A stretch of 64,000 nt of DNA from Halanaerobiaceae bacterium (GTDB lineage Bacteria > Bacillota > Halanaerobiia > Halanaerobiales > Halarsenatibacteraceae): contig PWEJ01000102.1 of assembly GCA_003553485.1 (NCBI GenBank), positions 1 through 64,000 on the forward strand. Direction: 5' to 3'. A model generated the notes under the pieces. That model was not told where the DNA came from and did no database searches. It saw nothing but the letters and a program-made list of their open reading frames with translations. Numbering within the stretch: position 1 is the first letter of the stretch; each line of letters begins with the position of its first letter. Positions 4,925-31,086 of the stretch are shown one piece after another. Both the position numbers and the translations under genes were made by a program.

Positions 4925-6186
<1,262 letters not shown>

Positions 6187-6187
<1 letters not shown>

Positions 6188-6681
6188 TGGAGTTACAGGG
6201 AAAAGCCTGGAAGTACGGTGATGATATAGATACTGATGTAATAATACCAGCTCGCTACTTAAATACTTCTGATCCCCAGGAGCTGGCTAAACACTGTCTG
6301 GAAGATTTAGATCCTCAATTTAAAGAGAAAATGACAGCAGGAGATTTAATCGTAGCCGGAGATAATTTTGGCTGTGGAAGTTCTCGGGAGCATGCTCCTT
6401 TAGCCATTAAAGCGGCTGGAGTTTCCTGTGTCATAGCTAATTCCTTTGCTCGAATTTTTTATCGCAATGCTTTAAATATCGGTTTGCCGATTTTAGAGTG
6501 CCCCTCAGCTGTGATTGATATATCCGAAGGTGATGAAATAAAGGTTGATATAGATAGTGGTTTGATCTTCAATTTGTCCACAGAAAAGAAGTATCAAGCT
6601 GTTCCTTTTCCTGATTTTATGCAGGAATTAATCCAGTCTGGAGGGCTGATCAATTATGTGAGAAAGCAGGTGAAAGAATAA
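6187..6681 (+). CDS. leuD: 3-isopropylmalate dehydratase, small subunit
   Basis: This 164-residue swivel-domain partner of LeuC begins with the typical [21 protein letters not shown]. It contains the [21 protein letters not shown] substrate-binding motif and the [15 protein letters not shown] segment. The short length matches the archaeal/clostridial type that pairs with 420-residue LeuC. It sits between leuC (one-base overlap) and leuB (stop directly followed by ATG), so the genes are tightly coupled. Confidence 0.95.
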
Positions 6682-7731
6682 ATGTCTGAATATAATATAG
6701 CTCTGATACCAGGCGATGGCATAGGTCCAGAAGTGGTAGCCCAGGGAGTGAAGGTCCTGGAAAAATTGGCCCAAATCAGTACTTTGAATTTTAATTTTCA
6801 GGAATTTCCCCTGGGGGCTGACCATTATCTAAGCACTGGCGAACTTATTAGCCCGGAGACCAAGCAGGACCTGGCCGACTTCGATGCTCTTTATTTAGGT
6901 GCCGTCGGTGATCCTCGAGTTAAACCTGGAGTTTTAGAACATGGAATTTTATTGGATCTGCGCTTTTCCTTTGATATGTATATCAACCTGCGGCCAGTGA
7001 AGCTCTTAATGGAAAAGTTTACCCCCCTTAAGGATACCAGCCCAGAGGATATAGATATGTTAGTGGTAAGAGAAAATACCGAGGGGTTGTATGCTGGCAG
7101 CGGTGGATTTCTTAAAAAAGATACCCCCCAGGAAGTGGCCGTGCAGGAGATGATCAACACCTATCATGGGGTGGAAAGAGTAATCCGCTATGCCTATGAA
7201 TATGCTGCCAGGAAAGAGGGGAAATTGACCCTCTGTGATAAGTGTAATGTTCTGGAATATGCTCATGATCTCTGGCAGAGAGTTTATAAAAAGGTGGGGG
7301 AAGACTTTCCCGCTGTTGAGCAGGATCATATTTTAGTTGATGCTATGACCATGAAGATGGTCAGAAATCCTGAGATTTTCGATGTAGTGGTGACCTGTAA
7401 TATGTTCGGTGATATCATTACTGATTTAGGTGCCGAGATTCAGGGGGGAATGGGTCTGGCTGTTTCTGGCAACATTAACCCAGAAGGAGTTTCGATGTTT
7501 GAACCAGTACACGGCTCTGCTCCTGATATTGCTGGTGAAGGTAAAGCCAACCCCACAGCAGCTTTATTGGCAGCAGCTATGATGGTTGAGGTTTTAGGCC
7601 ACCGGAAAGAAGCAGAGAAGATAGAAAAAGCTGTCAATAATGCTCTAACAGCAGGAAAAACCACTGAAGACATGGGCGGTAGACTTTCAACAAGTGAAGC
7701 AGGAGATTATATCTGTAGTATTTTAGAGTAA
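6682..7731 (+). CDS. leuB: 3-isopropylmalate dehydrogenase, archaeal/IDH-like branch
   Basis: This beta-decarboxylating dehydrogenase produces 2-oxoisocaproate from 3-isopropylmalate and, in this context, probably 2-oxobutyrate from 3-methylmalate. The family motifs are clear: IPGDGIGPEVV at the start, MYINLRPVKL, and the metal-binding NMFGDIITDLGAEIQGG and FEPVHGSAPDIAGEGKANP regions. However, the substrate-loop signature is RENTEGLYAG, not the RELTGGIYFG of ordinary bacterial LeuB, and GVLEHGILLDLRFSFD also looks like tartrate/homoisocitrate dehydrogenases. The position between leuD and cimA supports a LeuB role, but specificity may be broad. Confidence 0.85.
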   Translation: MSEYNIALIPGDGIGPEVVAQGVKVLEKLAQISTLNFNFQEFPLGADHYLSTGELISPETKQDLADFDALYLGAVGDPRVKPGVLEHGILLDLRFSFDMYINLRPVKLLMEKFTPLKDTSPEDIDMLVVRENTEGLYAGSGGFLKKDTPQEVAVQEMINTYHGVERVIRYAYEYAARKEGKLTLCDKCNVLEYAHDLWQRVYKKVGEDFPAVEQDHILVDAMTMKMVRNPEIFDVVVTCNMFGDIITDLGAEIQGGMGLAVSGNINPEGVSMFEPVHGSAPDIAGEGKANPTAALLAAAMMVEVLGHRKEAEKIEKAVNNALTAGKTTEDMGGRLSTSEAGDYICSILE

Positions 7732-7779
7732 TATAAAGTAACTAAAGCAATTGTTGAATAGGAGGCATTTAGAAGGATA

Positions 7780-9357
7780 ATGATAAAAATATATGATACT
7801 AGTCTGCGTGATGGAACCCAGCGAGAAGGGATCTCCTATTCCACCGAAGATAAATTAAATATCACCAGAAAACTAGCTGAAACAGGGATTGATTATATAG
7901 AAGGAGGTTGGCCGGGCTCTAACCCCAAGGATATTGAGTATTTTGCCCGAGTCCAGGAATTGGATCTGCCCAATAGCAAAATTGCTGCCTTTGGCAGCAC
8001 CAGACATGCTAATATCTCTCCAGCTGAGGATAAAAATTTGCAGGCTATTATAGATTCTGGAGCTGATGTGGCAACTATAGTAGGCAAGTCCTGGGTATTG
8101 CATGTAGAAGAGGCCCTTAATACCAGTTTAGAGGAAAATCTGGCCATGATAGAAAGCTCAGTGAGATATTTAAAAGAACAGGGAATGGAAGTCTTTTTTG
8201 ATGCAGAACATTTTTTTGCTGGATATCAAGACTCAGCTGACTATGCTTTGAAGGTACTGCAAGCCGCCGAAAGAGGTGGTGCTGATGCCCTGGTTCTCTG
8301 TGATACCAATGGTGGGACGATGCCCTCCAGGTTGCGGGAAATAATTAAGGAAGTCAAGCAGGAGGTTTCCTGTTCCCTGGGGATTCACGCCCATAATGAT
8401 TGTGAGCTGGCCGTTGCCAATACTCTGGTTGCTGTGGAAGAAGGAGTTTCCCAGGTGCAGGGAACCATAAATGGCTATGGTGAGCGCTGCGGAAATGCCA
8501 ATCTATCATCGATAATACCCAACCTGCAGTTGAAGTATGACTATCAGGTAGTAAGCCCGGAAGAGTTGAAAAAGTTGACGGCTACCTCCCGATATGTTAG
8601 TGAAGCTGCTAATCTCAATCCCCCTGCCCAGGCTCCCTATGTGGGAGAAAGTGCCTTTGCCCATAAAGGGGGTATTCATGTTAGTGCTATTTTGAAAAAT
8701 TCCCGCACCTATGAACATCAGGACCCGGAGCTGGTAGGCAATAAACGCCGGGTGTTGGTATCAGAGCTGTCAGGAAAAAGCAATTTGATTTATAAGGCTG
8801 AAGAATTAGGCATAGAATTAGATGCTGATAACCATAATCTCAAGGCAGTGCTCAACAAAATCAAGAAACTGGAGCATGAAGGCTATTATTTTGAGGGAGC
8901 TGAGGCCTCTCTTAAACTCCTTTTAGAAAAAGCTAGAGGAGATTATGAAAAGCTCTTTGAGTTAGAGGGGATTAGAATTTTGACCGATAAGAAAGAGGCT
9001 ATTAACCCTCACTCTGAGTCCACTATTAAAGTCTTGGTAGAGGGCAAGAAGGTCCATACGGCGGCAGAAGGGGTAGGGCCTGTCAATGCTTTAGATAAGG
9101 CTTTAAGGAAAGCCTTAGTCAATTTCTACCCTGAGATCAGCAATATTTATTTAGTAAACTACAAAGTACGAGTTCTCAATGGTAAAGATGGTACAGCAGC
9201 CCGGGTTAGAGTATTAATCGAAAGCAGTAATGGAGATGAGAGCTGGGGGACGGTGGGAGTATCCAGTAATATTATTGAGGCTAGCTGGCAGGCTTTAGTC
9301 GATAGTATCCAACATGGAATCAAGATAGCCCGGGAAAATAAAGAGGTGAAAAAGTGA
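7780..9357 (+). CDS. cimA: (R)-citramalate synthase
   Basis: It condenses pyruvate and acetyl-CoA to citramalate, giving 2-oxobutyrate for isoleucine without threonine deaminase. The start [17 protein letters not shown] is the citramalate-synthase variant of the LeuA barrel signature. [14 protein letters not shown] and [12 protein letters not shown] follow, and [11 protein letters not shown] lies before the helical region. The C-terminal third is a LeuA-type regulatory dimer domain. Length 525 is normal for CimA. An AGGAGGCATTT ribosome site precedes the ATG. The last bases overlap ilvD as GTGA. Another member of the LeuA family is possible but less likely. Confidence 0.93.
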
Positions 9358-11021
9358 ATAAAAATAGTGACAAGGTAACTGGCAAAATTGATAATGCTCC
9401 TCAACGTTCTCTTTTTAAAGCCTTGGGCCTGACTGATCAAGAACTAGAAGATCCTTTGATTGGTATCGCCAATTCTTTCAGTGAGTTGATACCAGGACAT
9501 AGTGATCTTAAGAAAGTTGCTGCAGCGGTGAAGGCCGGAGTGAGAAGAGCCGGAGGGACGCCCTTAGAATTTGGCACTATCGGAGTCTGTGATGGAATTG
9601 CTATGGGACATGAAGGGATGCACTTCTCCCTGGCCAGCAGAGAATTAATAGCCGATTCTGTGGAATCGGTAGCCAGAGCCCATGCCCTTGATGCTTTGGT
9701 ATTAATACCAAACTGTGATAAGGTGGTACCAGGGATGATAATGGCTGCTTTGCGTTTGAATATTCCGGCTCTGGTTATTAGTGGGGGCCCGATGATGGCC
9801 GGGCAGCATGGCAGCGAAAATATCGATTTAAAGACTGTTTTTGAAGGGGTAGCAGCTGTTAAAGCTGGCAAAATGACCGAGGAAGAGTTATCGACAATAG
9901 AAAATTCAGCCTGTCCTGGCTGTGGTAGCTGTGCAGGAATGTTTACTGCAAATTCCATGAACTGTTTAACAGAGGTTTTGGGGCTGGGTTTACCTGGCAA
10001 TGGGACAATTCCTGCTGTGGAGGCAGCCAGGCTGCGCTTAGCCAAAAAAGCAGGCCAGCAAATCGTAAGGCTCTTTAAGGAGGACTTAAAACCCCGGGAT
10101 ATTGTTAAGGAAGAATCCTTTATCAATGCCCTGAAGGTAGATATGGCCCTGGGTTGTTCTACTAACACCGCTTTGCATTTACCTGCAATTGCCCATGAAG
10201 CCAATGTTGATCTGGAGATCGAATTGATAAATGAAATTAAGGAACAAATACCCCATTTATGCAGTTTAAGTCCAGCAGGGGAGCATCATATTCAGGATCT
10301 TCATCGGGCCGGCGGTATACCAGCAGTGATGAAAATATTGCAGCAAAATGATCTCTTAGCTGACGAAGTGATGACAGTGACAGGACAAAAATTGCGCGAA
10401 AATCTCCTGGGAGTAAAAGTTGCTGACAGGCAGGTTATAAGGGATTTTACCACAGCTTATCATGCCACAGGAGGTTTAGCTGTCTTAAAGGGCAATATTG
10501 CTCCCCAGGGAGCGGTGGTGAAACAGGCAGCCGTAGCGGAAGAGATGCTGGTCCATGAAGGTCCAGCTAGAGTTTTTAACTCCGAAGAGGAGGCAGTGGC
10601 TGCAATCCATGCCGGTAAGATCAATTCCGGCGATGTTATTGTGATAAAATATGAAGGGCCTAAGGGTGGTCCTGGTATGCGGGAGATGTTATCCCCAACT
10701 TCAGCTATAGCTGGCGTCGGTCTGGATAAGGAAGTGGCTCTCCTCACCGATGGCAGGTTCTCTGGAGCTAGCCGCGGGGCTTCTATAGGTCATATTTCCC
10801 CGGAAGCAATGGCCGGAGGGCCTCTGGCGGTAGTAGAGGAAAATGATCTAATAAAAATAGATATCCCAGCTGAAAAATTGGCAGTGGATATTTCCGCTGA
10901 AGAGTTACAGCAAAGAATGAAATCATGGCAGAAACCCGGTGCTAAAGTTGAGAGCAGTTACTTAAGAAGATATGCTAGTATGGTGAGTTCAGCTGCTAAA
11001 GGAGCCATATTAGAAGTGTAA
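9354..11021 (+). CDS. ilvD: Dihydroxy-acid dehydratase
   Basis: This Fe-S enzyme dehydrates the dihydroxy acids to 2-oxoisovalerate and 2-oxo-3-methylvalerate. The cluster cysteines are visible in NCDKVVPGM and [18 protein letters not shown]. The C-terminal [15 protein letters not shown] and [21 protein letters not shown] blocks are characteristic. The 555-residue length is usual. The GTG start overlaps the cimA stop (GTGA), with GAGGTG just upstream as the ribosome site. A long antisense frame inside this gene is judged a shadow. Confidence 0.96.
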
Positions 11022-11088
11022 AATGGGTTAGGACTTATATTTAGCAGATTAATTAATAACTTACTAAGAAAACTGGAGGATTTAAAGA

Positions 11089-12156
11089 ATGGATAAAAAC
11101 ATAAGAATTGAGAAGTGTGAAGATAGACAAGAACCCCCGAAGGATGAAGAACTTAGTTTCGGCAGGACCTTTACAGACCATATGTTTGTCATGGACTACG
11201 AGGAAGAGCAGGGATGGTATGACCCCAGGATTGTTCCCTATAGCCCCTTAGAGATTGATCCAGCAGCTGCTTTTTGCCATTACGGGCAGACCACTTTCGA
11301 AGGTTTGAAAGCTTATCGAACGGAAGATGATAGGATTTTACTCTTTCGGCCGGAAAAAAATGCCGAGAGGTTTAACAATTCCAATGAGAGAATGTGTATC
11401 TGTCAGATGGATCCCGATTTTTTCGTGGAGGCGGTAAAAAAGACAGTCCAGGTAGATAAAAATTGGGTGCCTGCTAAACCAGGTACTGCCCTTTATATCA
11501 GACCCTTTACCATTGCCACGGAGATATATCTGGGATTAAAACCTTCCTCAAGATATAAATTTATAATTATCATGTCCCCGGTAGCTGCCTATTACGATCA
11601 GGGCATAAAACCAACTAAAATATACGTTGAGACTGATTTTGTTAGAGCAAGCAAGGGAGGTACCGGTATGGCCAAAACCGGTGGCAATTATGCCGGCAGT
11701 TTAAAGGCTCAAGCTGAAGCAGCAGAGATGGGATATGATGAAGTTCTCTGGCTAGATGGGAATAATAGAGAATTTGTTGAAGAAGTTGGGGCCATGAATG
11801 TCTTTTTCAAGATAAATGGCAAGATCATCACCCCTTCTTTAGAGGGAACTATTCTGCCTGGTATCACTAGAGATTCAGTGATTACAATCTTAGAAGACTG
11901 GGGTATGGAGGTAGAAGAGAGGAAGATTAAGATTGAAGAGGTGGCTGAAGCTTATAAAAGTGGCGATTTAGAAGAAGCCTTTGGCACAGGCACAGCAGCT
12001 ATAATTTCTCCTATTGGCACCCTTAGCTGGCAGGATATGGAGATGGAGATTAACAATGGTGAAACTGGTGAGGTTGCCAGCAAGCTTTATGATAAGCTGA
12101 TTGGCATTCAAACGGGCAAGATAGAAGACCCCTATGACTGGACAGTAGAAGTTTAA
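11089..12156 (+). CDS. ilvE: Branched-chain amino-acid aminotransferase
   Basis: This PLP enzyme performs the last step to Val, Leu and Ile. It is a fold-type IV aminotransferase of 355 residues, resembling the longer BCAT2-like form. Visible motifs are HYGQTTFEGLKAYR near the start, the PLP lysine in MAKTGGNYAGSLKAQAEA, EEVGAMNVFF, and the LPGITRDSVITI phosphate-binding turn. It follows ilvD by 67 bases with an ACTGGAGGAT ribosome site. It is the last gene before a strong new promoter, so it probably ends the ilv-leu transcript, although no clear terminator hairpin is seen. Confidence 0.94.
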   Translation: MDKNIRIEKCEDRQEPPKDEELSFGRTFTDHMFVMDYEEEQGWYDPRIVPYSPLEIDPAAAFCHYGQTTFEGLKAYRTEDDRILLFRPEKNAERFNNSNERMCICQMDPDFFVEAVKKTVQVDKNWVPAKPGTALYIRPFTIATEIYLGLKPSSRYKFIIIMSPVAAYYDQGIKPTKIYVETDFVRASKGGTGMAKTGGNYAGSLKAQAEAAEMGYDEVLWLDGNNREFVEEVGAMNVFFKINGKIITPSLEGTILPGITRDSVITILEDWGMEVEERKIKIEEVAEAYKSGDLEEAFGTGTAAIISPIGTLSWQDMEMEINNGETGEVASKLYDKLIGIQTGKIEDPYDWTVEV

Positions 12157-24106: not shown

Positions 24107-24119
24107 AAAGGTGATAAAA

Positions 24120-26051
24120 GTGGCCAAAAATGCATCCAGTGCTAGTCTAGGCAAAAATCTGCTAACTGATCTCGATTCTTTTAAGGCTTTGGAGATTTTA
24201 TTAGCATTGTTTCTCTTCAGCTTGAGCCTATTATCTATATATTGGCTGGAGATATTTTCGGAAAATCTAAGTTTGATTTTTTTCTTGCTGGCTTATTTAC
24301 TTACTGGCTGGAGAATTGTCTTAAAAGCCGGTCAGAATATCTTAAAGGGTACCCTCTTTGATGAAAACTTTTTAATGACTGTTGCCACCCTGGGGGCCTT
24401 TGCTATTGGTGAGGCACCAGAAGCTGTTGCTGTGATGCTTTTTTACCGGATTGGTGAATATTTTCAGGATAGTGCAGTCTCCTATTCGCAAAAATCCATT
24501 AAAGAGCTTCTTTCTTTAAACCCCGATAAGGCAAAGGTGAAAGTAGGGGGCCAAATTGCAGAAAAAAATGTTGCTGACCTGCAAAAGGGTGATGTTGTGA
24601 TAGTAAGTAGAGGTGAAAGAATACCTGCTGATGGAAGAGTGAAGAAAGGCCGAGCTAATCTTGACACCTCAGCTTTGACGGGAGAGAGTGAACCCCAACC
24701 AGTTATTAAGGGGAATGACGTTAAGGCTGGGATGCTCAATTTAGATGGGGCTTTAGAGATAGAGATCAGTCATCCTGCTAAAGAATCAGCAATAGCTAAA
24801 ATTATAAATTTGGTAGAAGAAGCTACAGCCAGGCAGGGCAAAACAGAAAAATTCATCAGCAGAGTGGCCGGTTATTATACACCAATAGTGGTGGGAATGG
24901 CAGTGCTCATAGCCACGTTTCCTCCTTTAATTTTAGGAGCATCCTGGCAGCAATGGGTATATCGGGCCTTGATTTTTCTAGTTATCTCCTGCCCCTGCGC
25001 CTTAGTGATATCAATTCCCTTGAGTTTCTTTGCCGGTCTAGCCTCTTTAGCACGACAGGGTATTTTATTTAATGGTAGTGAATTTATTGAAAAATTGGCT
25101 GAGATAAAAAATGTTATTTATGATAAGACAGGTACTCTGACTGAAGGAGAGATGAAACTAAGGGAGGTAAACATCGTAAATGATTATGATAAAGATGAAA
25201 TCTTAAAATTGGTATTGGCAGCTGAACAATATTCCAACCACCCTTTAGCTAAAGCTCTATGGGAAGATAAAGATTTAAAGGGAAAATTTAAGGACTTACC
25301 AGAGGTTAATCATATTGAGGAAAAACCAGGTCAGGGTCTGGTGGCCACCTTTGATAATAAAAAATTAAAGATTGGTAATAGAAAGTGGTTGGAGGAAGAT
25401 TTAGGACTAAATTTTCCGGCAGACCAATCGTCAGGCGCCCAAATATTAGTAGCTATAGCAGAAGAACCGGCAGCAGTATTGAGCTTTAGTGATACTATTC
25501 GTAGAGGAATGAAAGAGCTTATAGTTGATCTTAAGAGTGCGGGAATAATAGAACAACTTATTTTAAGTGGGGATAAAGAAAAGACGGTGGATAAGGTGGC
25601 TGAGAATTTAGGCATATCCTATCAGGCCGATTTATTACCAGAGGATAAAATGACGCTCTTAGAAAAATTTTTAGAGGATAAAAGCGGCAAAACAGCTTAT
25701 CTAGGCGATGGCATCAATGATGCTCCGGCTTTAGCCAGAGCTGACGTAGGTATTGCAATGGGAGGAATGGGCTCTGATATTGCTTTAGAGTCTGCCGAAG
25801 TTGTGATTATGAATGATGACCCCCGGCGGTTATTGACAGGTCTGCAAATATCCAGGACCACGATGAAAATTGTCTGGCAAAATATTATTTTAGCTTTAGG
25901 CATTAAGGTGCTTATCATGCTCACAGGCTTAATGGGAGTTACTAATTTATGGCTGGCTGTCTTTGCTGATGTCGGTGTTACTATTTTAGCTGTATTAAAC
26001 TCTTTAAGAATTATCTGGAAATATCGTGGTAAGGAGGATCATGATGAATAA
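24120..26051 (+). CDS. Heavy-metal translocating P1B-type ATPase (Zn/Cd/Pb exporter)
   Basis: This ATP-driven exporter of soft divalent metals has about 643 residues. Visible parts are hydrophobic lead helices, the A-domain TGESEPQ loop, the transmembrane CPC motif (SCPCAL, about 291-293), phosphorylation site DKTGT (Asp about 335), the HP motif in SNHPLAKAL, and GDGINDAPALARADVGIAMG. The CPC plus the late GSDIALESAEVVIM region fits the Zn/Cd/Pb subgroup. There is no N-terminal heavy-metal (GMTCxxC) domain. The GTG at 24120 is chosen because AAAGGTGA lies 6 bases upstream and contains the alternative GTG at 24111. It overlaps the repressor gene by 11 bases. Confidence 0.93.
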   Translation: MAKNASSASLGKNLLTDLDSFKALEILLALFLFSLSLLSIYWLEIFSENLSLIFFLLAYLLTGWRIVLKAGQNILKGTLFDENFLMTVATLGAFAIGEAPEAVAVMLFYRIGEYFQDSAVSYSQKSIKELLSLNPDKAKVKVGGQIAEKNVADLQKGDVVIVSRGERIPADGRVKKGRANLDTSALTGESEPQPVIKGNDVKAGMLNLDGALEIEISHPAKESAIAKIINLVEEATARQGKTEKFISRVAGYYTPIVVGMAVLIATFPPLILGASWQQWVYRALIFLVISCPCALVISIPLSFFAGLASLARQGILFNGSEFIEKLAEIKNVIYDKTGTLTEGEMKLREVNIVNDYDKDEILKLVLAAEQYSNHPLAKALWEDKDLKGKFKDLPEVNHIEEKPGQGLVATFDNKKLKIGNRKWLEEDLGLNFPADQSSGAQILVAIAEEPAAVLSFSDTIRRGMKELIVDLKSAGIIEQLILSGDKEKTVDKVAENLGISYQADLLPEDKMTLLEKFLEDKSGKTAYLGDGINDAPALARADVGIAMGGMGSDIALESAEVVIMNDDPRRLLTGLQISRTTMKIVWQNIILALGIKVLIMLTGLMGVTNLWLAVFADVGVTILAVLNSLRIIWKYRGKEDHDE

Positions 26052-26448
26052 TTCCAGGGAAATACAGGAAAAAAAAAGAGAAGAGAGACAGCAAAATGAC
26101 TGTGCAGTCTGTGAAATTTATAATCCCCATGAAAAAATTATTGAATTACTGAAAAATAAAGATTTAAATGAGGAGAAAACGAAAAGGCTGGCCGATCTTT
26201 TTCAGGTTTTGTCAGATCCAACTCGTCTAAAAATTATCAACGCCTTAAGGCAACAGGAGCTGTGTGTCTGTGATATTCAAGAAATTTTACAAATGAGCGC
26301 ATCGGCAGTATCTCATCAACTAAGGGTTTTACGCAATTTTAATCTGGTGAAATACAGGAAAGAAGGCCGGCAAGCTTTTTATTCTATAGCTGACCAGCAT
26401 GTAATCTCTCTCTTTTGTCAGGGTCTAGAACATGTTATGGAAGATTAA
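26041..26448 (+). CDS. ArsR/SmtB-family metal repressor, CadC-like
   Basis: This 135-residue winged-helix repressor probably senses Cd, Pb or Zn. Two metal sites are complete by sequence. The alpha-3N type site is Cys21 and Cys24 (DCAVC) with Cys75 and Cys77 (ELCVC). The alpha-5 type site is Asp118, His120, His131 and Glu134 in the exact D-x-H-10x-H-2x-E spacing. The DNA-recognition helix region is MSASAVSHQLRVLRNFNLV. The ATG at 26041 has TAAGGAGGATC upstream, inside the ATPase gene. It should bind the palindrome at 24067-24106 and thus autoregulate. Confidence 0.93.
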   Translation: MMNNSREIQEKKREERQQNDCAVCEIYNPHEKIIELLKNKDLNEEKTKRLADLFQVLSDPTRLKIINALRQQELCVCDIQEILQMSASAVSHQLRVLRNFNLVKYRKEGRQAFYSIADQHVISLFCQGLEHVMED

Positions 26449-26568: not shown

Positions 26569-27273
26569 ATGAAAATACTTCCAGCTTTGTATCTAAAAGA
26601 AGGAAAAGCTGTTTTATTAAAAAATGGCAATTTAGATGATTTTGAAGTTATTTCTGAGGATCCCTTAGAGTTGGCCAGGGATTTTAGCGAGCAAGGGGCC
26701 AGCACTATACATCTCGTTGATCTCGATGGAGCTCAGCAAGGTGGACCTCGGAACCAATGTGAAGTCCAGCAAATTTTGAGCAAGACTGATCTGGCCGTCC
26801 AGGTAGGTGGGGGTATCAGGGATATTGTTGTTGCCCGAAATTACCTCCATGCTGGAGCTGAGGCCGTTGTGGTTAGCACTGCTGCCGTAACCAATCCCTA
26901 TTTTGTGGAAGAATTACTGAGTACCTTCGGCCAGGAAGCGGTGATAGTATCACTGGATGTAAGAGATGATAAAATAGTTATATCTGGTTGGGAAGAAGAG
27001 TCAGGACTGGGAGTTCACTCCACTCTGGCTAAGTTTATTGACAAAGGGGCTACTAGATTTGTTTATACCGATGTAGGTGGCGATAACCTTATTGAAGGCC
27101 TTGAAGCAAGAAATCTAAAAGCCTTTACCAGACAAAATATTGAAGTTACTATTTCGGGCAGGATTTCCAGCAAGGAAGAAATAGCAGAGTTTGCTAAAAA
27201 AGGTGTCGATAGAATTATTTTAGATTATTCTCTTTATAATAATGAAATCAAGTTAGAAAAAGTTCTGCAATGA
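26569..27273 (+). CDS. HisA-like (beta-alpha)8 barrel protein lacking the first catalytic Asp
   Basis: This 234-residue protein aligns along its length with HisA (ProFAR isomerase of histidine synthesis). Phosphate-binding VQVGGGIRD and the SLDVRDD segment (catalytic Asp about 130) are present, and YTDVGGD keeps the Thr-Asp. However, the HisA general base in PAIDL is replaced: the start reads MKILPALYL with Tyr8. The second phosphate loop reads SGRIS instead of SGGIS. It is alone, not in a his operon. It could be a divergent HisA, a repurposed paralogue, or inactive. A GGGATGTGA ribosome site precedes the ATG. Confidence 0.7.
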   Translation: MKILPALYLKEGKAVLLKNGNLDDFEVISEDPLELARDFSEQGASTIHLVDLDGAQQGGPRNQCEVQQILSKTDLAVQVGGGIRDIVVARNYLHAGAEAVVVSTAAVTNPYFVEELLSTFGQEAVIVSLDVRDDKIVISGWEEESGLGVHSTLAKFIDKGATRFVYTDVGGDNLIEGLEARNLKAFTRQNIEVTISGRISSKEEIAEFAKKGVDRIILDYSLYNNEIKLEKVLQ

Positions 27274-27338: not shown

Positions 27339-27367
27339 TTGCAGAAAATAAAGAGATATGCTATAAT
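27339..27367 (+). promoter_or_regulatory. Promoter of the iron-uptake operon
   Basis: TTGCAG at 27339-27344 and TATAAT at 27362-27367 are 17 bases apart. A second possible promoter (TTGTTA near 27395, TATATG near 27419) would overlap the Fur-like box. Confidence 0.7.
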
Positions 27368-27421
27368 TTTTCTAGGTTGATATTTTACAGTGAATTGTTA
27401 CAATAATTTTTTTAATAATAT

Positions 27422-27438
27422 ATGAAAATGATTTTCAT
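27422..27438 (+). promoter_or_regulatory. Fur-family operator
   Basis: ATGAAAATGATTTTCAT is a perfect inverted repeat about a central base. Its core TGAAAAT-G-ATTTTCA fits the 7-1-7 Fur box TGATAAT-N-ATTATCA with one mismatch per arm. It lies 22 bases before the first start codon of the operon that ends in feoA-feoB, so iron-dependent repression is expected. Confidence 0.85.
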
Positions 27439-27460
27439 TTGAATTGTGCAGGTGAAAAAG

Positions 27461-28048
27461 TTGCAAATAATTAGACCTTTAATCCAAAAATGGGAAAACC
27501 TTTGTCAGGGCAATAAATTTCTTTTTTTTCTCTATGCTAAACCTTACCGCAAAGCTGTGGCTCGAGAAGCTGAGTTAGCTAATATTACCAGCACTGATAA
27601 AGTATTAAATATAGGCTGTGGCGCTCTTCCCTTTACGGCCTATTATTTACAGAAAATTACCCGGGCTAAAGTTATTGCTATTGATAATGATAGGTCAGCA
27701 GTAGAGCAGGCTGCTATCTTGCTCTCTGATTTAGAGTTAAAAAATAATATTGAGTTAAAAACAATGACAGGAACAGAGGCCGTTACTAATCTGGATTATA
27801 ATGTAGTGGTAGCAGCCTTACAAACTGCTAATAAAGAAAAAATATTAGCCAGGATCTCTGAGACTAAAACCAATGATAATTGGAAATTTGTTCTACGGGA
27901 GCCCCGGGAAAGAGTTGCTGGACAGTATGATTCCTTATCTTCAGATATCCCCTATGCTGACCAGGCTAAACAATATTTCCCGACCTTTTCCAAATCAGTG
28001 ATGCTAACGGCCAATTCTTTATCAAAAGCAGTGATCAGCGATGTTTAA
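27461..28048 (+). CDS. SAM-dependent methyltransferase-fold protein, nicotianamine-synthase-like
   Basis: A small Rossmann protein of about 195 residues. The SAM loop reads VLNIGCGALPFTAYYL (about 48-63), followed by AIDNDRSAVEQAA, DYNVVVAALQTANKEKIL and LREPRERVAGQYD. The order and spacing resemble plant and archaeal nicotianamine synthases (GxGxLPxT; FDID.xAN.xA; D-V-V-hydrophobic-AAL; LRxAxG). Nicotianamine-type enzymes join aminobutyrate units from SAM to make metal chelators. The Fur box and downstream feoAB fit a metallophore role, but an ordinary methyltransferase is possible. The TTG at 27461 has AGGTGA just upstream; the GTG at 27446 is an alternative. Confidence 0.6.
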   Translation: MQIIRPLIQKWENLCQGNKFLFFLYAKPYRKAVAREAELANITSTDKVLNIGCGALPFTAYYLQKITRAKVIAIDNDRSAVEQAAILLSDLELKNNIELKTMTGTEAVTNLDYNVVVAALQTANKEKILARISETKTNDNWKFVLREPRERVAGQYDSLSSDIPYADQAKQYFPTFSKSVMLTANSLSKAVISDV

Positions 28049-29015
28049 AGGTAAGAAAAAATACTTTACTATTTTAGTTATGACTTTGCTCCTAGGGGCT
28101 ATCTTAAGAGCTAGAGATGAACTTTTTCAAGCGCTCTCCCATTTAACTCTGGAGGTTTTTTTACTCCTCGTAATTTTACAGCTGACGACCTTGCTGACCG
28201 TTGCCTGGCAATGGAAATATATCATTGAGAAGGGGCATTTTGCAAAAGTTTCTTTCCAGGAAATTGTTAAGATTAATTTAGGGGCAAAATTCATTGAAAG
28301 TATCACCCCTTCGACCAAACTGGGTGGTGAGTCAGCTAAATTTTACTTATTAAATAAAATAAGTAATATTTCGGCAGTGAATTCTGTGGCTGTGATGAGT
28401 CTGCAAAAAGTAACCACTTTTTCTGCTTTAATTATAATAGTTCTACCCTTTATATCCTATTGGCCCCGGGAACAGGAAATATTTTCTAGTATATCTCCTG
28501 TTAAGGCAATTAATTCCTATTCACCTGAAATTATTATAATCATTATACTAATTATCGTCACTATGATTGTAGGAGGCAAAAAAAGTGAAATTGATTTTTC
28601 CCCTGTATTACTCAAGGTGAAAGATTTTTTTCAGGAACTGGGGGAAGTATTAGTTGATAAAGGAAAGCCCAAAATAATAATTAAAGCTTCTTTGATTGCA
28701 GGTTTATATTGGCTATTATATCCTGTTAAAACTTATTTAGTAGCACATTTTACCTTTGGTAATATTACTATAGGATTGGCAATAGCAGCGACATTACTTG
28801 CCTATATAGTTAGCACTTTACCTTTAATGCCAGGTGGTTTAGGAACTTTTGAAGGAACAATGGCCCTGGTTTTGATGGGCGCCGGTTTTACTTTTAATGA
28901 GGGTTTATTGGTAGCCCTGCTCCTTAGAGTAATCACCTTCTGGTTTCCTTTAATATTATCTGCCATAATCACCTTGAAATTATCCAATGAAGTTTTACAG
29001 CTAAGAGAAGATTGA
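28041..29015 (+). CDS. UPF0104/MprF-like flippase-domain membrane protein
   Basis: This 324-residue protein has about eight hydrophobic helices and the lysylphosphatidylglycerol-synthase transmembrane-domain (UPF0104) signature: VFLLLVILQLTTLLTVAWQW near the start, LGAKFIESITPSTKLGGESAKFYLL, and the late STLPLMPGGLGTFEGTMALVLMGAGF. The family includes flippase modules of MprF but most members are uncharacterised. It overlaps the upstream NAS-like gene by 8 bases, so the two are translationally coupled. In this setting it may move the product of that gene or its metal complex (inference). Confidence 0.82.
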   Translation: MFKGKKKYFTILVMTLLLGAILRARDELFQALSHLTLEVFLLLVILQLTTLLTVAWQWKYIIEKGHFAKVSFQEIVKINLGAKFIESITPSTKLGGESAKFYLLNKISNISAVNSVAVMSLQKVTTFSALIIIVLPFISYWPREQEIFSSISPVKAINSYSPEIIIIIILIIVTMIVGGKKSEIDFSPVLLKVKDFFQELGEVLVDKGKPKIIIKASLIAGLYWLLYPVKTYLVAHFTFGNITIGLAIAATLLAYIVSTLPLMPGGLGTFEGTMALVLMGAGFTFNEGLLVALLLRVITFWFPLILSAIITLKLSNEVLQLRED

Positions 29016-29075
29016 AATTGCTATATTTATATTTAATAAGTTTAAGTTCGTATACCGCAATATGGAGGGTTTTAT

Positions 29076-29354
29076 ATGAAAGATAGAATTCAAAATTGTC
29101 AGCAGCAACGAGAGGAATACAAAAATTTATTGCAATTAGAGGAAGGAGAAGAGGCAACAATAATCAGTTCTCCTGAGCACTGTCTATTGGCCCCGCTGGG
29201 TTTTAGAAGAGGAAAAAGTGTAAAAATAAGGTCTTATCAGCCTTTTCAGGGTCCCGTGGTAGCCGAAATAGAAGGCCGGCAGGTTGCCATTGATAGAGAA
29301 TTAGCCGCAGAAATATTGCTAGAGCCGGAGGTTTCTATTAATGCCGCCGGGTAG
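29076..29354 (+). CDS. feoA: Ferrous iron transport protein A
   Basis: This 92-residue SH3-like protein helps FeoB. The FeoA core is visible from about residue 23: EGEEATIISSPEHCLLAPLGFRRGKSVKIRSYQPFQGPVVAEIEGRQVAIDRELAAEILLE, including the L-G-F-R-G and G-x-x-hydrophobic-A-ID patterns. It has an extra 20-residue N-terminal helix. ATATGGAGGGTTT precedes the ATG. It overlaps feoB by 14 bases, the usual arrangement. Confidence 0.92.
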   Translation: MKDRIQNCQQQREEYKNLLQLEEGEEATIISSPEHCLLAPLGFRRGKSVKIRSYQPFQGPVVAEIEGRQVAIDRELAAEILLEPEVSINAAG

Positions 29355-31086
29355 TTTAGCTAAGGAAGAACAACAGAAAAAAATATTACTCATGGGACCG
29401 CCAAATGTCGGGAAAAGTGTTATTTTTAACAAGTTAACCGGTTTAGATGCCATGATATCTAATTACACCGGAACTACTATAGATTATAAAGAAGGATATA
29501 TTAAAGACCATCCCAATTATCATCTGATAGATGTACCTGGCACCTATACCCTTGATGCTACCAATGAGGCTGAAAAGGTGGCCACAGATATGTTAACTGC
29601 CGGGGCTGATCTGGTAGTAGCTGTTTTAGATGCTAAAAACTTAGAAAGCAGCATATATCTTTTGTTGCAGATTTTAGAGAAAAATTTACCCACCATAGTG
29701 GTAATCAATCGGATTGATATTCTGGCTAAAGAGGGTTTTATTATCAATGAAAGAATTCTCTCAAGCAAGCTGGGGTTGGATGTAATTAAGACGATTGCAA
29801 TTGAAGAAGAGGGATTAAAAAAATTAAAAAATAAAATCAGTGCTCTGTTAAAGGGTGATTGTCAGCAATGTCTGGGAAGTCAGGATTTAACCAGCAGCTG
29901 GGAACTGGCAGAAGAGCTCACTATTGATATCCTAGCCCGAAATAAAAAAGAAAAAAGCAGTCGCGATGATAAAATTGAACAAGTAGGTGATATGCTCTCT
30001 CGCCCCTGGCCCGGGATACCCCTAGCTTTTTTAATTTTAGCGGCAATTTTTGCTCTGGTGGTAGGAATTGGTATGGGGTTAAGGCAGTATATATTATTAC
30101 CCTTATTCACCCAATTTTTATTTCCCCTGATTACTGCCGCCGTCGAATCGGTAATCCCGGCTGGAATATTCCGCAATATTCTAATCGGCGAGTATGGCTT
30201 TTTAATTAAAGGCCTGGAGTGGCCCTTTGCCCTAGTCTTACCCTACGTTATTTCTTTTTATACCGCATTAAGCATCCTGGAAGACGTAGGTTATTTGCCC
30301 CGCCTGGGAGTTTTGCTTGATGGCATATTTAGCAAGATAGGTTTATCAGGTGCTAATATAATTCCTTTGCTATTAGGGTATGGTTGTGCTATTCCGGGCA
30401 TTGCTGCCACTAGAGCAATGCCGACGCAGAAGGAGAGAGTGATGGTCTCTACCATGATCTGTCTGGCTATTCCCTGCATCTCGCAGACCGGGGCTATGAT
30501 CTCTTTATTGGCCGAGGAATCAATTCTGGTAATGCTTTTAACCTTTATGGTTTCCTTTTTAGTATTAATTGCTAATGCCCTGGTTTTGAATCATATTTTA
30601 CCTGGGCAAAAAAATGCCACGGTGGTGGAAATTCCTCCCCTTTTATTTTCGGGACCAAAAATTTTAGCCAAAAAAATCTGGCTCCGGATTAAGACCTATC
30701 TTAAAAGTGGAGCAGTGATGATGATATATGCCATTGCCGGAGCAGCCGTTTTATTTGAGATAGGTCTACTGGAATATGTGGGCAGGTTATTACAGCCTTT
30801 AGTAGAAAGCTGGTTATTACTACCTGCTGAGGCTTCAACTCCTCTAATTTTAGGGATAGTAAGAAGAGAGCTGGCAGTTTTACCTCTATTGGAAATGAAT
30901 CTAACGGGACTGCAGCTTTTTACCGGCGCTCTGGTGGCCTTATTTTATGTTCCCTGTATAGCTGTTTTAGCCATGTTAGCTCGAGAATTCAACCTTAAAT
31001 TAGCTGCTAAAATAACAATATTCACCATAGTATTTTCTTTAATATTTGGTGGTTTGGTAGCGCAGCTAGGTGGTTTGTTTATTTAA
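29341..31086 (+). CDS. feoB: Ferrous iron transport protein B, divergent short form
   Basis: This GTP-gated Fe(II) membrane transporter has 581 residues, shorter than the common 650-770. The N-terminal G domain has G1 GPPNVGKS (19-26), the switch region NYTGTTIDY, G3 DVPG (64-67) and a G4 of NRID instead of NKxD (123-126). The membrane part has the Gate motif GYGCAIPGIAATR (about 345-357) and the C-terminal YVPCIAVLAMLAREF. The second half of the Gate is IPCISQTGAMISLL, where classic FeoB has C-x-A-x-LPVY. It is last in the Fur-box operon. Substrate is probably Fe(II), possibly another metal or a complex. Confidence 0.9.
   Translation: MPPGSLAKEEQQKKILLMGPPNVGKSVIFNKLTGLDAMISNYTGTTIDYKEGYIKDHPNYHLIDVPGTYTLDATNEAEKVATDMLTAGADLVVAVLDAKNLESSIYLLLQILEKNLPTIVVINRIDILAKEGFIINERILSSKLGLDVIKTIAIEEEGLKKLKNKISALLKGDCQQCLGSQDLTSSWELAEELTIDILARNKKEKSSRDDKIEQVGDMLSRPWPGIPLAFLILAAIFALVVGIGMGLRQYILLPLFTQFLFPLITAAVESVIPAGIFRNILIGEYGFLIKGLEWPFALVLPYVISFYTALSILEDVGYLPRLGVLLDGIFSKIGLSGANIIPLLLGYGCAIPGIAATRAMPTQKERVMVSTMICLAIPCISQTGAMISLLAEESILVMLLTFMVSFLVLIANALVLNHILPGQKNATVVEIPPLLFSGPKILAKKIWLRIKTYLKSGAVMMIYAIAGAAVLFEIGLLEYVGRLLQPLVESWLLLPAEASTPLILGIVRRELAVLPLLEMNLTGLQLFTGALVALFYVPCIAVLAMLAREFNLKLAAKITIFTIVFSLIFGGLVAQLGGLFI

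Follow-up and report, generated by a model that had tools for sequence, protein, structure and literature searches.

An operon behind a Fur-like box in a Halanaerobiaceae bacterium links a short nicotianamine-synthase-like enzyme and an MprF-type flippase-like protein to FeoAB

Bacteria import Fe(II) mainly through FeoB, which is commonly held to accept the ion in free or loosely bound form. A survey of Feo evolution leaves methyltransferase and nicotianamine genes unmentioned (PMC8749426). Among nicotianamine synthases (NAS), the Methanothermobacter enzyme MtNAS relies on the catalytic pair Glu81 and Tyr107 (PMC10491745), and the equivalent Glu and Tyr residues are essential in the Arabidopsis enzyme (PMC10248798). 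Bacterial zincophore clusters use MFS, EamA, or MatE exporters (PMC7438024), while MprF both synthesizes aminoacyl phospholipids and flips them (PMC8131360). Here, we describe an operon that brings parts resembling these systems together, located in a 64,000-nucleotide stretch (hereafter the window) of a Halanaerobiaceae bacterium (assembly GCA_003553485.1, contig PWEJ01000102.1, positions 1 to 64,000). The operon carries, behind a Fur-like box, a short NAS-like gene (NAS-A), a gene for a flippase-like membrane protein, feoA, and feoB. In the reading that we favor, and that we hold at about even chances, it would be a Fur-controlled Fe(II) uptake unit with its own lipid-anchored metal ligand. 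Our full-text literature search, with subscription journals mostly outside its coverage, returned no paper joining NAS, Feo, a flippase, and phosphatidylserine (PS) synthase. The features of the locus are as follows:

27377..27404, plus strand: sigma-70-like promoter, TTGATA-N16-TACAAT (10/12 in a consensus scan, TG before the -10 element; a consensus match only)
27422..27438, no strand: putative Fur-like operator, perfect 8-1-8 palindrome ATGAAAATGATTTTCAT; similar boxes lie near the operon starts of many relatives
27461..28048, plus strand: NAS-A (gene 1), 195 aa, predicted NAS-type S-adenosylmethionine (SAM) 3-amino-3-carboxypropyl (ACP) transferase, from profile and fold
27494-27496 and 27545-27547, plus strand: codons of E12 and Y29, corresponding to MtNAS E81 and Y107
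28041..29015, plus strand: gene 2, LPG_synthase_TM / MprF-type flippase-like membrane protein (PF03706, 2.6e-32; AlphaFold2 and Foldseek)
29076..29354, plus strand: feoA (PF04023, 1.7e-11)
29341..31086, plus strand: feoB, the single copy by genome search (FeoB_N, 1.5e-46, and Gate)

The four genes are tightly coupled. Genes 1 and 2 overlap by 8 bases, a gap of 60 bases separates gene 2 from feoA, and feoA and feoB overlap by 14, the coordinates confirming the two overlaps on which an earlier, first-pass annotation of this DNA had based a single unit. The start of gene 1 is most likely the TTG at 27461, which has AGGTG six bases upstream, rather than the GTG at 27446 where the mechanical open reading frame begins. 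In gene order, the Pfam/NCBIfam families are NAS/methyltransferase fold, LPG_synthase_TM, FeoA, and FeoB_N plus Gate; FeoB, which combines GTPase and Gate domains and is accompanied by FeoA, scores 299.5 bits against TIGR00437 (cut-off 315.65). Because the genome contains no other feoB, the operon is its dedicated Feo system. The repeat that had been reported ahead of these genes is indeed a palindrome with no mismatch, contains a 7-1-7 core (27423-27437), and sits shortly downstream of the sigma-70-like promoter. It is the single 0-mismatch match to TGAAAATNATTTTCA within the window and agrees with TGATAATNATTATCA at 12 of 14 positions (~0.007 by shuffling of the upstream region). These properties point to a putative promoter-borne operator of the Fur 7-1-7 type.

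Gene 1 is a minimal relative of the NAS family, with a predicted ACP transfer from SAM. The window protein alone scores 26.4 bits against the NAS family PF03059, just under the cut-off of 27.1, and also matches generic methyltransferase families (Methyltransf_31, 27.8 bits); its best NCBIfam and PDB match is CntL, the NAS-like enzyme of staphylopine and pseudopaline clusters. The family gives a sharper picture. PF03059 is matched at E <=0.001 by 12 of 18 NAS-A members and by 16 of 20 members of a second clade, NAS-B. Against the PDB, the NAS-A family profile finds MtNAS (1.5e-15) and CntL (1.8e-13), the next methyltransferase reaching only 9e-6, and the clade B profile places MtNAS first (1.8e-20). 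The AlphaFold2 model of gene 1 (mean pLDDT, a per-residue confidence score, 93.4) gave the same ranking, the first eight Foldseek matches comprising MtNAS (TMq up to 0.73) and, after it, CntL. The NAS-like assignment of the first-pass annotation thus stands by profile and fold, and the ranking with MtNAS and CntL in front leads us to reject an ordinary methyltransferase identity.

The catalytic residues point the same way. Clades A and B both retain the NAS-type GxGxxP(F/L/M)T motif and the two catalytic residues. The invariant Y29 falls on MtNAS Tyr107 by profile alignment and is Tyr in 66/66 aligned members; E12 is kept in 64/64 members of the same 66-member alignment, the other two being gapped there. 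By alignment rather than superposition, E12 occupies the position of the clade B Glu that aligns with a Glu of CntL, which we took to be E84, the residue mutated in PDB entry 7c9k, titled E84Q. The full N-terminal helical domain is absent from this 195-aa protein, whose alignment with MtNAS starts near MtNAS residue 95. We call gene 1 NAS-like, and not a nicotianamine synthase, because most of that domain is missing.

The product of gene 2 has the fold of the MprF lipid flippase, and lipid translocation is its predicted activity. In a Foldseek search with its AlphaFold2 model (pLDDT 81, built from 16 sequences), ranks 1 to 6 were six MprF structures, with no other convincing match. The flippase sequence profile found no match in the PDB; the likeness to MprF came from the fold search alone. 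The earlier description of gene 2 as a flippase-like membrane protein can be refined to this lipid-flippase fold.

Linkage between NAS and Feo genes is conserved across many Bacillota families, as the first-pass annotation had required of relatives. Of 399 genomes sampled from the phylum, 55 match, the weakest of them resembling generic methyltransferases. In a set of 65 loci with a NAS gene, 54 have feoB on the same strand and no more than 4 kb away, and 52 have the flippase gene so placed; many of these loci, some with a lone NAS-A copy among them, show a Fur-like box close to where the operon begins. A restriction of the cluster to Halanaerobiales is thereby ruled out. A NAS protein is present in 22 of 59 genomes of the class Halanaerobiia, where the usual order is NAS-A, flippase, NAS-B, feoA, feoB; outside the class, feoA, feoB, NAS-A, flippase is common. 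The window genome is a derived arrangement in which NAS-B was relocated out of the unit, to another contig (G000:C76) beside a CbiX-type gene. The four-gene unit originally described is therefore correct for the window, while a second NAS paralogue normally belongs to it. Physical fusions tie NAS-B to the same partners: It is joined C-terminally to a FeoA domain in seven alignment members, and locus L104 encodes a single polypeptide with the flippase in front and NAS-B behind, the domain order of MprF. Members were assigned to A or B at a threshold of 150 bits, with L140 and L142, near-equal with both models, counted as A. A contig search found loci in named Halanaerobiaceae, Halanaerobium polyolivorans, Fuchsiella, and Halonatronum, as well as short weak matches in Alphaproteobacteria and Halobacteria that we took as generic methyltransferases.

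Several relatives depart from these arrangements. In L054 (G049:C92, 3939-5307), the NAS-B of a Fuchsiella-like genome lies away from the feo operon and adjoins a 249-aa gene that clusters with a DUF4198 protein of L051. In L047 (G001:C217, 5596-6372), a degenerate NAS-B-FeoA fusion on a very long branch, with the SAM motif LGCAVVPFT, is possibly a decaying or changed enzyme. L109 (G151:C1:672000-688000, 5551-6998) has an extra LPG_synthase_TM gene before feoA, giving an operon with two flippase-like genes.

The clue to a lipid came from a further gene. Outside Halanaerobiia, in 16 genomes from nine families, the gene after the flippase, often overlapping it, encodes a CDP-alcohol phosphatidyltransferase of the PssA (PS synthase)/archaetidylserine synthase type. 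This operonic pssA is the sole PssA of the genome in 14 of the 16, and none of the 16 encodes a PS decarboxylase; among the other 16 NAS-A-only genomes, where PssA is encoded elsewhere, 13 have the decarboxylase. PssA is present in 32/32 NAS-A-only genomes and absent from 23/24 genomes with both NAS-A and NAS-B, against a phylum background of 151/399 (38%). Within Halanaerobiia itself, genome G054, which has NAS-A only, carries a PssA gene at a distance of 2.3 kb upstream of feoA. Read most simply, these patterns mean that NAS-A needs PS or an equivalent that NAS-B can supply. The genomes with pssA in the operon lie mostly within one NAS-A subclade.

We can now set out the mechanism that we propose. 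Under iron limitation, Fur would release the operon. In most relatives PssA would supply PS as the acceptor, and in those lacking PssA, the window organism included, NAS-B would first make an amino-acid-bearing acceptor lipid. NAS-A would then move ACP from SAM to the alpha-amine of the phospholipid's amino-acid head group, and the MprF-type flippase would bring the product, a nicotianamine-like aminocarboxylate anchored in lipid, to the outer leaflet. There, the exposed lipid chelator would capture Fe(II) and pass it to FeoB by lateral diffusion. The first-pass annotation had suggested that the first two genes make and move a chelator for FeoB, which agrees with the NAS kinship and the Feo linkage; we favor a lipid-anchored chelator over a freely diffusing one because relatives have a PS synthase in the operon. 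A little short of even, we would go further and propose a new class of metallophore, with a NAS-built chelating head on a phospholipid, MprF-type display, dedication to FeoB, and an acceptor lipid bearing an amino acid that either PssA or NAS-B can supply.

Several observations weigh against this lipid-anchored mechanism. Every characterized NAS-family enzyme, to our knowledge, uses small soluble acceptors. The exclusion between PssA and NAS-B rests on few independent switches, and a Fisher's p on the genome counts takes no account of kinship. On a tree of 81 NAS proteins, the presence of NAS-B changes four times and that of PssA five times; the independent pairs with support number three, and although each changes in opposite directions, as predicted, so small a number cannot reach significance (sign test p 0.25). 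One genome with both NAS proteins, G316, does have PssA, next to a PS decarboxylase gene. The window genome itself lacks both types of PssA as well as PS decarboxylase and BtaA, and encodes one CDP-alcohol phosphatidyltransferase. Finally, in one locus, L139 (G142:C20:91000-105000, 6969-12099), the genes after a short NAS-A encode an EamA exporter and an Opp-type ABC importer that includes SBP_bac_5; this layout recalls soluble zincophore clusters, with no obvious opine dehydrogenase.

Two other lipid sources were considered for the window genome. A PLD (phospholipase D)-type PssA as a hidden source of PS gave no match, with the control positive in Escherichia coli, and a betaine-lipid route via BtaA is ruled out by the absence of that gene. 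Separately, no PF01066 CDP-alcohol phosphatidyltransferase was found in G356, G160, and G082 (controls positive 14/14); G356 is a single contig, 100% complete.

The best surviving rival, which we consider unlikely, is a soluble nicotianamine-like metallophore, where NAS-A, with NAS-B acting in sequence where present, would add ACP units to a free amino acid, export would fall to the flippase-like protein, and FeoB would receive either the complex with Fe(II) or Fe(II) released from it. Such a product would agree with all characterized NAS/CntL chemistry (PMC10491745), the two paralogues would suit a product such as thermonicotianamine, to which ACP is added twice in succession, and zincophore clusters with MFS, EamA, or MatE exporters offer a precedent (PMC7438024), one echoed by the EamA exporter and Opp-type importer beside NAS-A in L139 and by an Opp-type importer divergent from the operon in L105. 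It would, however, leave the operonic PssA, the context lacking PS decarboxylase, and the PssA/NAS-B exclusion unexplained. Moreover, the exporter families of zincophore clusters do not include the product of gene 2, whose fold is that of the lipid flippase MprF, and uptake of chelates by FeoB is not known. The CntM-type opine dehydrogenase (PF10100) had no match in 56 genomes, in a search where no positive control rang.

Improbable, in our estimate, is a unit that modifies lipids under the same regulation as Feo and does not chelate iron, in which an ACP- or methyl-lipid would tune the charge of the membrane or the activity of FeoB when iron is limiting. It shares the PssA, flippase, and fusion evidence with the lipid-anchored chelator; MprF likewise tunes charge, and FeoB, as a large membrane GTPase, could need particular lipids. 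Yet, every NAS-family product known to date is a metal ligand, and lone NAS-A copies adjoin other metal importers. In L116 (G314:C1:792000-808000, 6766-11727), a second NAS-A copy under a perfect 14/14 TGATAATNATTATCA box neighbors the gene of a membrane protein with a VTT domain and a cluster for metal import of the ZnuA/ABC-3/DtxR type; NAS, a membrane protein, and a metal importer thus come together again here, with other parts. Very improbable is an ordinary small-molecule, RNA, or phospholipid N-methyltransferase present in the operon by chance, which would fit the generic Methyltransf_31 match and the sub-threshold NAS score (26.4 against 27.1 bits) but conflicts with the clear lead of MtNAS and CntL in profile and fold searches, with the motif and catalytic pair kept in both clades, and with a linkage too conserved for chance.

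Around the operon, a GH65 gene downstream lies outside the conserved unit. Upstream, a hisA-like gene (26569-27273) scores 207.5 bits, below the HisA equivalog cut-off of 228.95, with no adjoining his genes seen, and positions 24111-26448 hold the gene of a P-type metal ATPase and, after it, that of an ArsR/SmtB regulator. The close relative L032 shares this ATPase/ArsR-SmtB pair and the hisA-like gene upstream of its operon, the hisA-like linkage being confined to L032.

If the lipid-anchored ligand is real, the picture of FeoB would change, since in many Bacillota families its operon would include a dedicated module for making a ligand. NAS chemistry would extend from soluble opine metallophores to lipids, and PS in cells without PS decarboxylase would gain a role. 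The model predicts a new lipid, for which cultures of Halanaerobium, Fuchsiella, or Halonatronum could be screened directly by mass spectrometry.

Compared with known systems, the closest enzyme is MtNAS (PDB 3FPE/3FPJ), the best structural and profile match, with which gene 1 shares the GxGxxPxT SAM motif and the catalytic Glu and Tyr. MtNAS has ~265 ordered residues whereas the protein here has 195, its N-terminal domain reduced to two helices, owing to which the acceptor side of NAS-A may be more open; the gene here is, in addition, linked to feoAB and a flippase. With CntL, the operon shares a bacterial NAS-like ACP transferase (predicted here), the equivalent of Glu84, and a place in a metal-uptake operon. 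Unlike CntL clusters, it contains neither a racemase nor an exporter of the MFS/EamA type nor an importer of the Opp/FecCD type, and has FeoB and an MprF-type flippase instead; an opine dehydrogenase likewise went undetected, in the search that lacked a positive control. BtaA, which makes betaine lipids, resembles our proposal in transferring ACP from SAM to a lipid and is not homologous to NAS (PMC10491745). MprF shares the flippase fold and, with the single flippase-NAS-B polypeptide of L104, the domain order, but its synthase domain is of the GNAT type and draws on an aminoacyl-tRNA donor, whereas the one here is of the NAS type, with SAM as donor. With FeoAB(C) operons, finally, the unit has feoA, feoB, and the Fur-like box in common, to which NAS and flippase genes are added here, and pssA as well in relatives.

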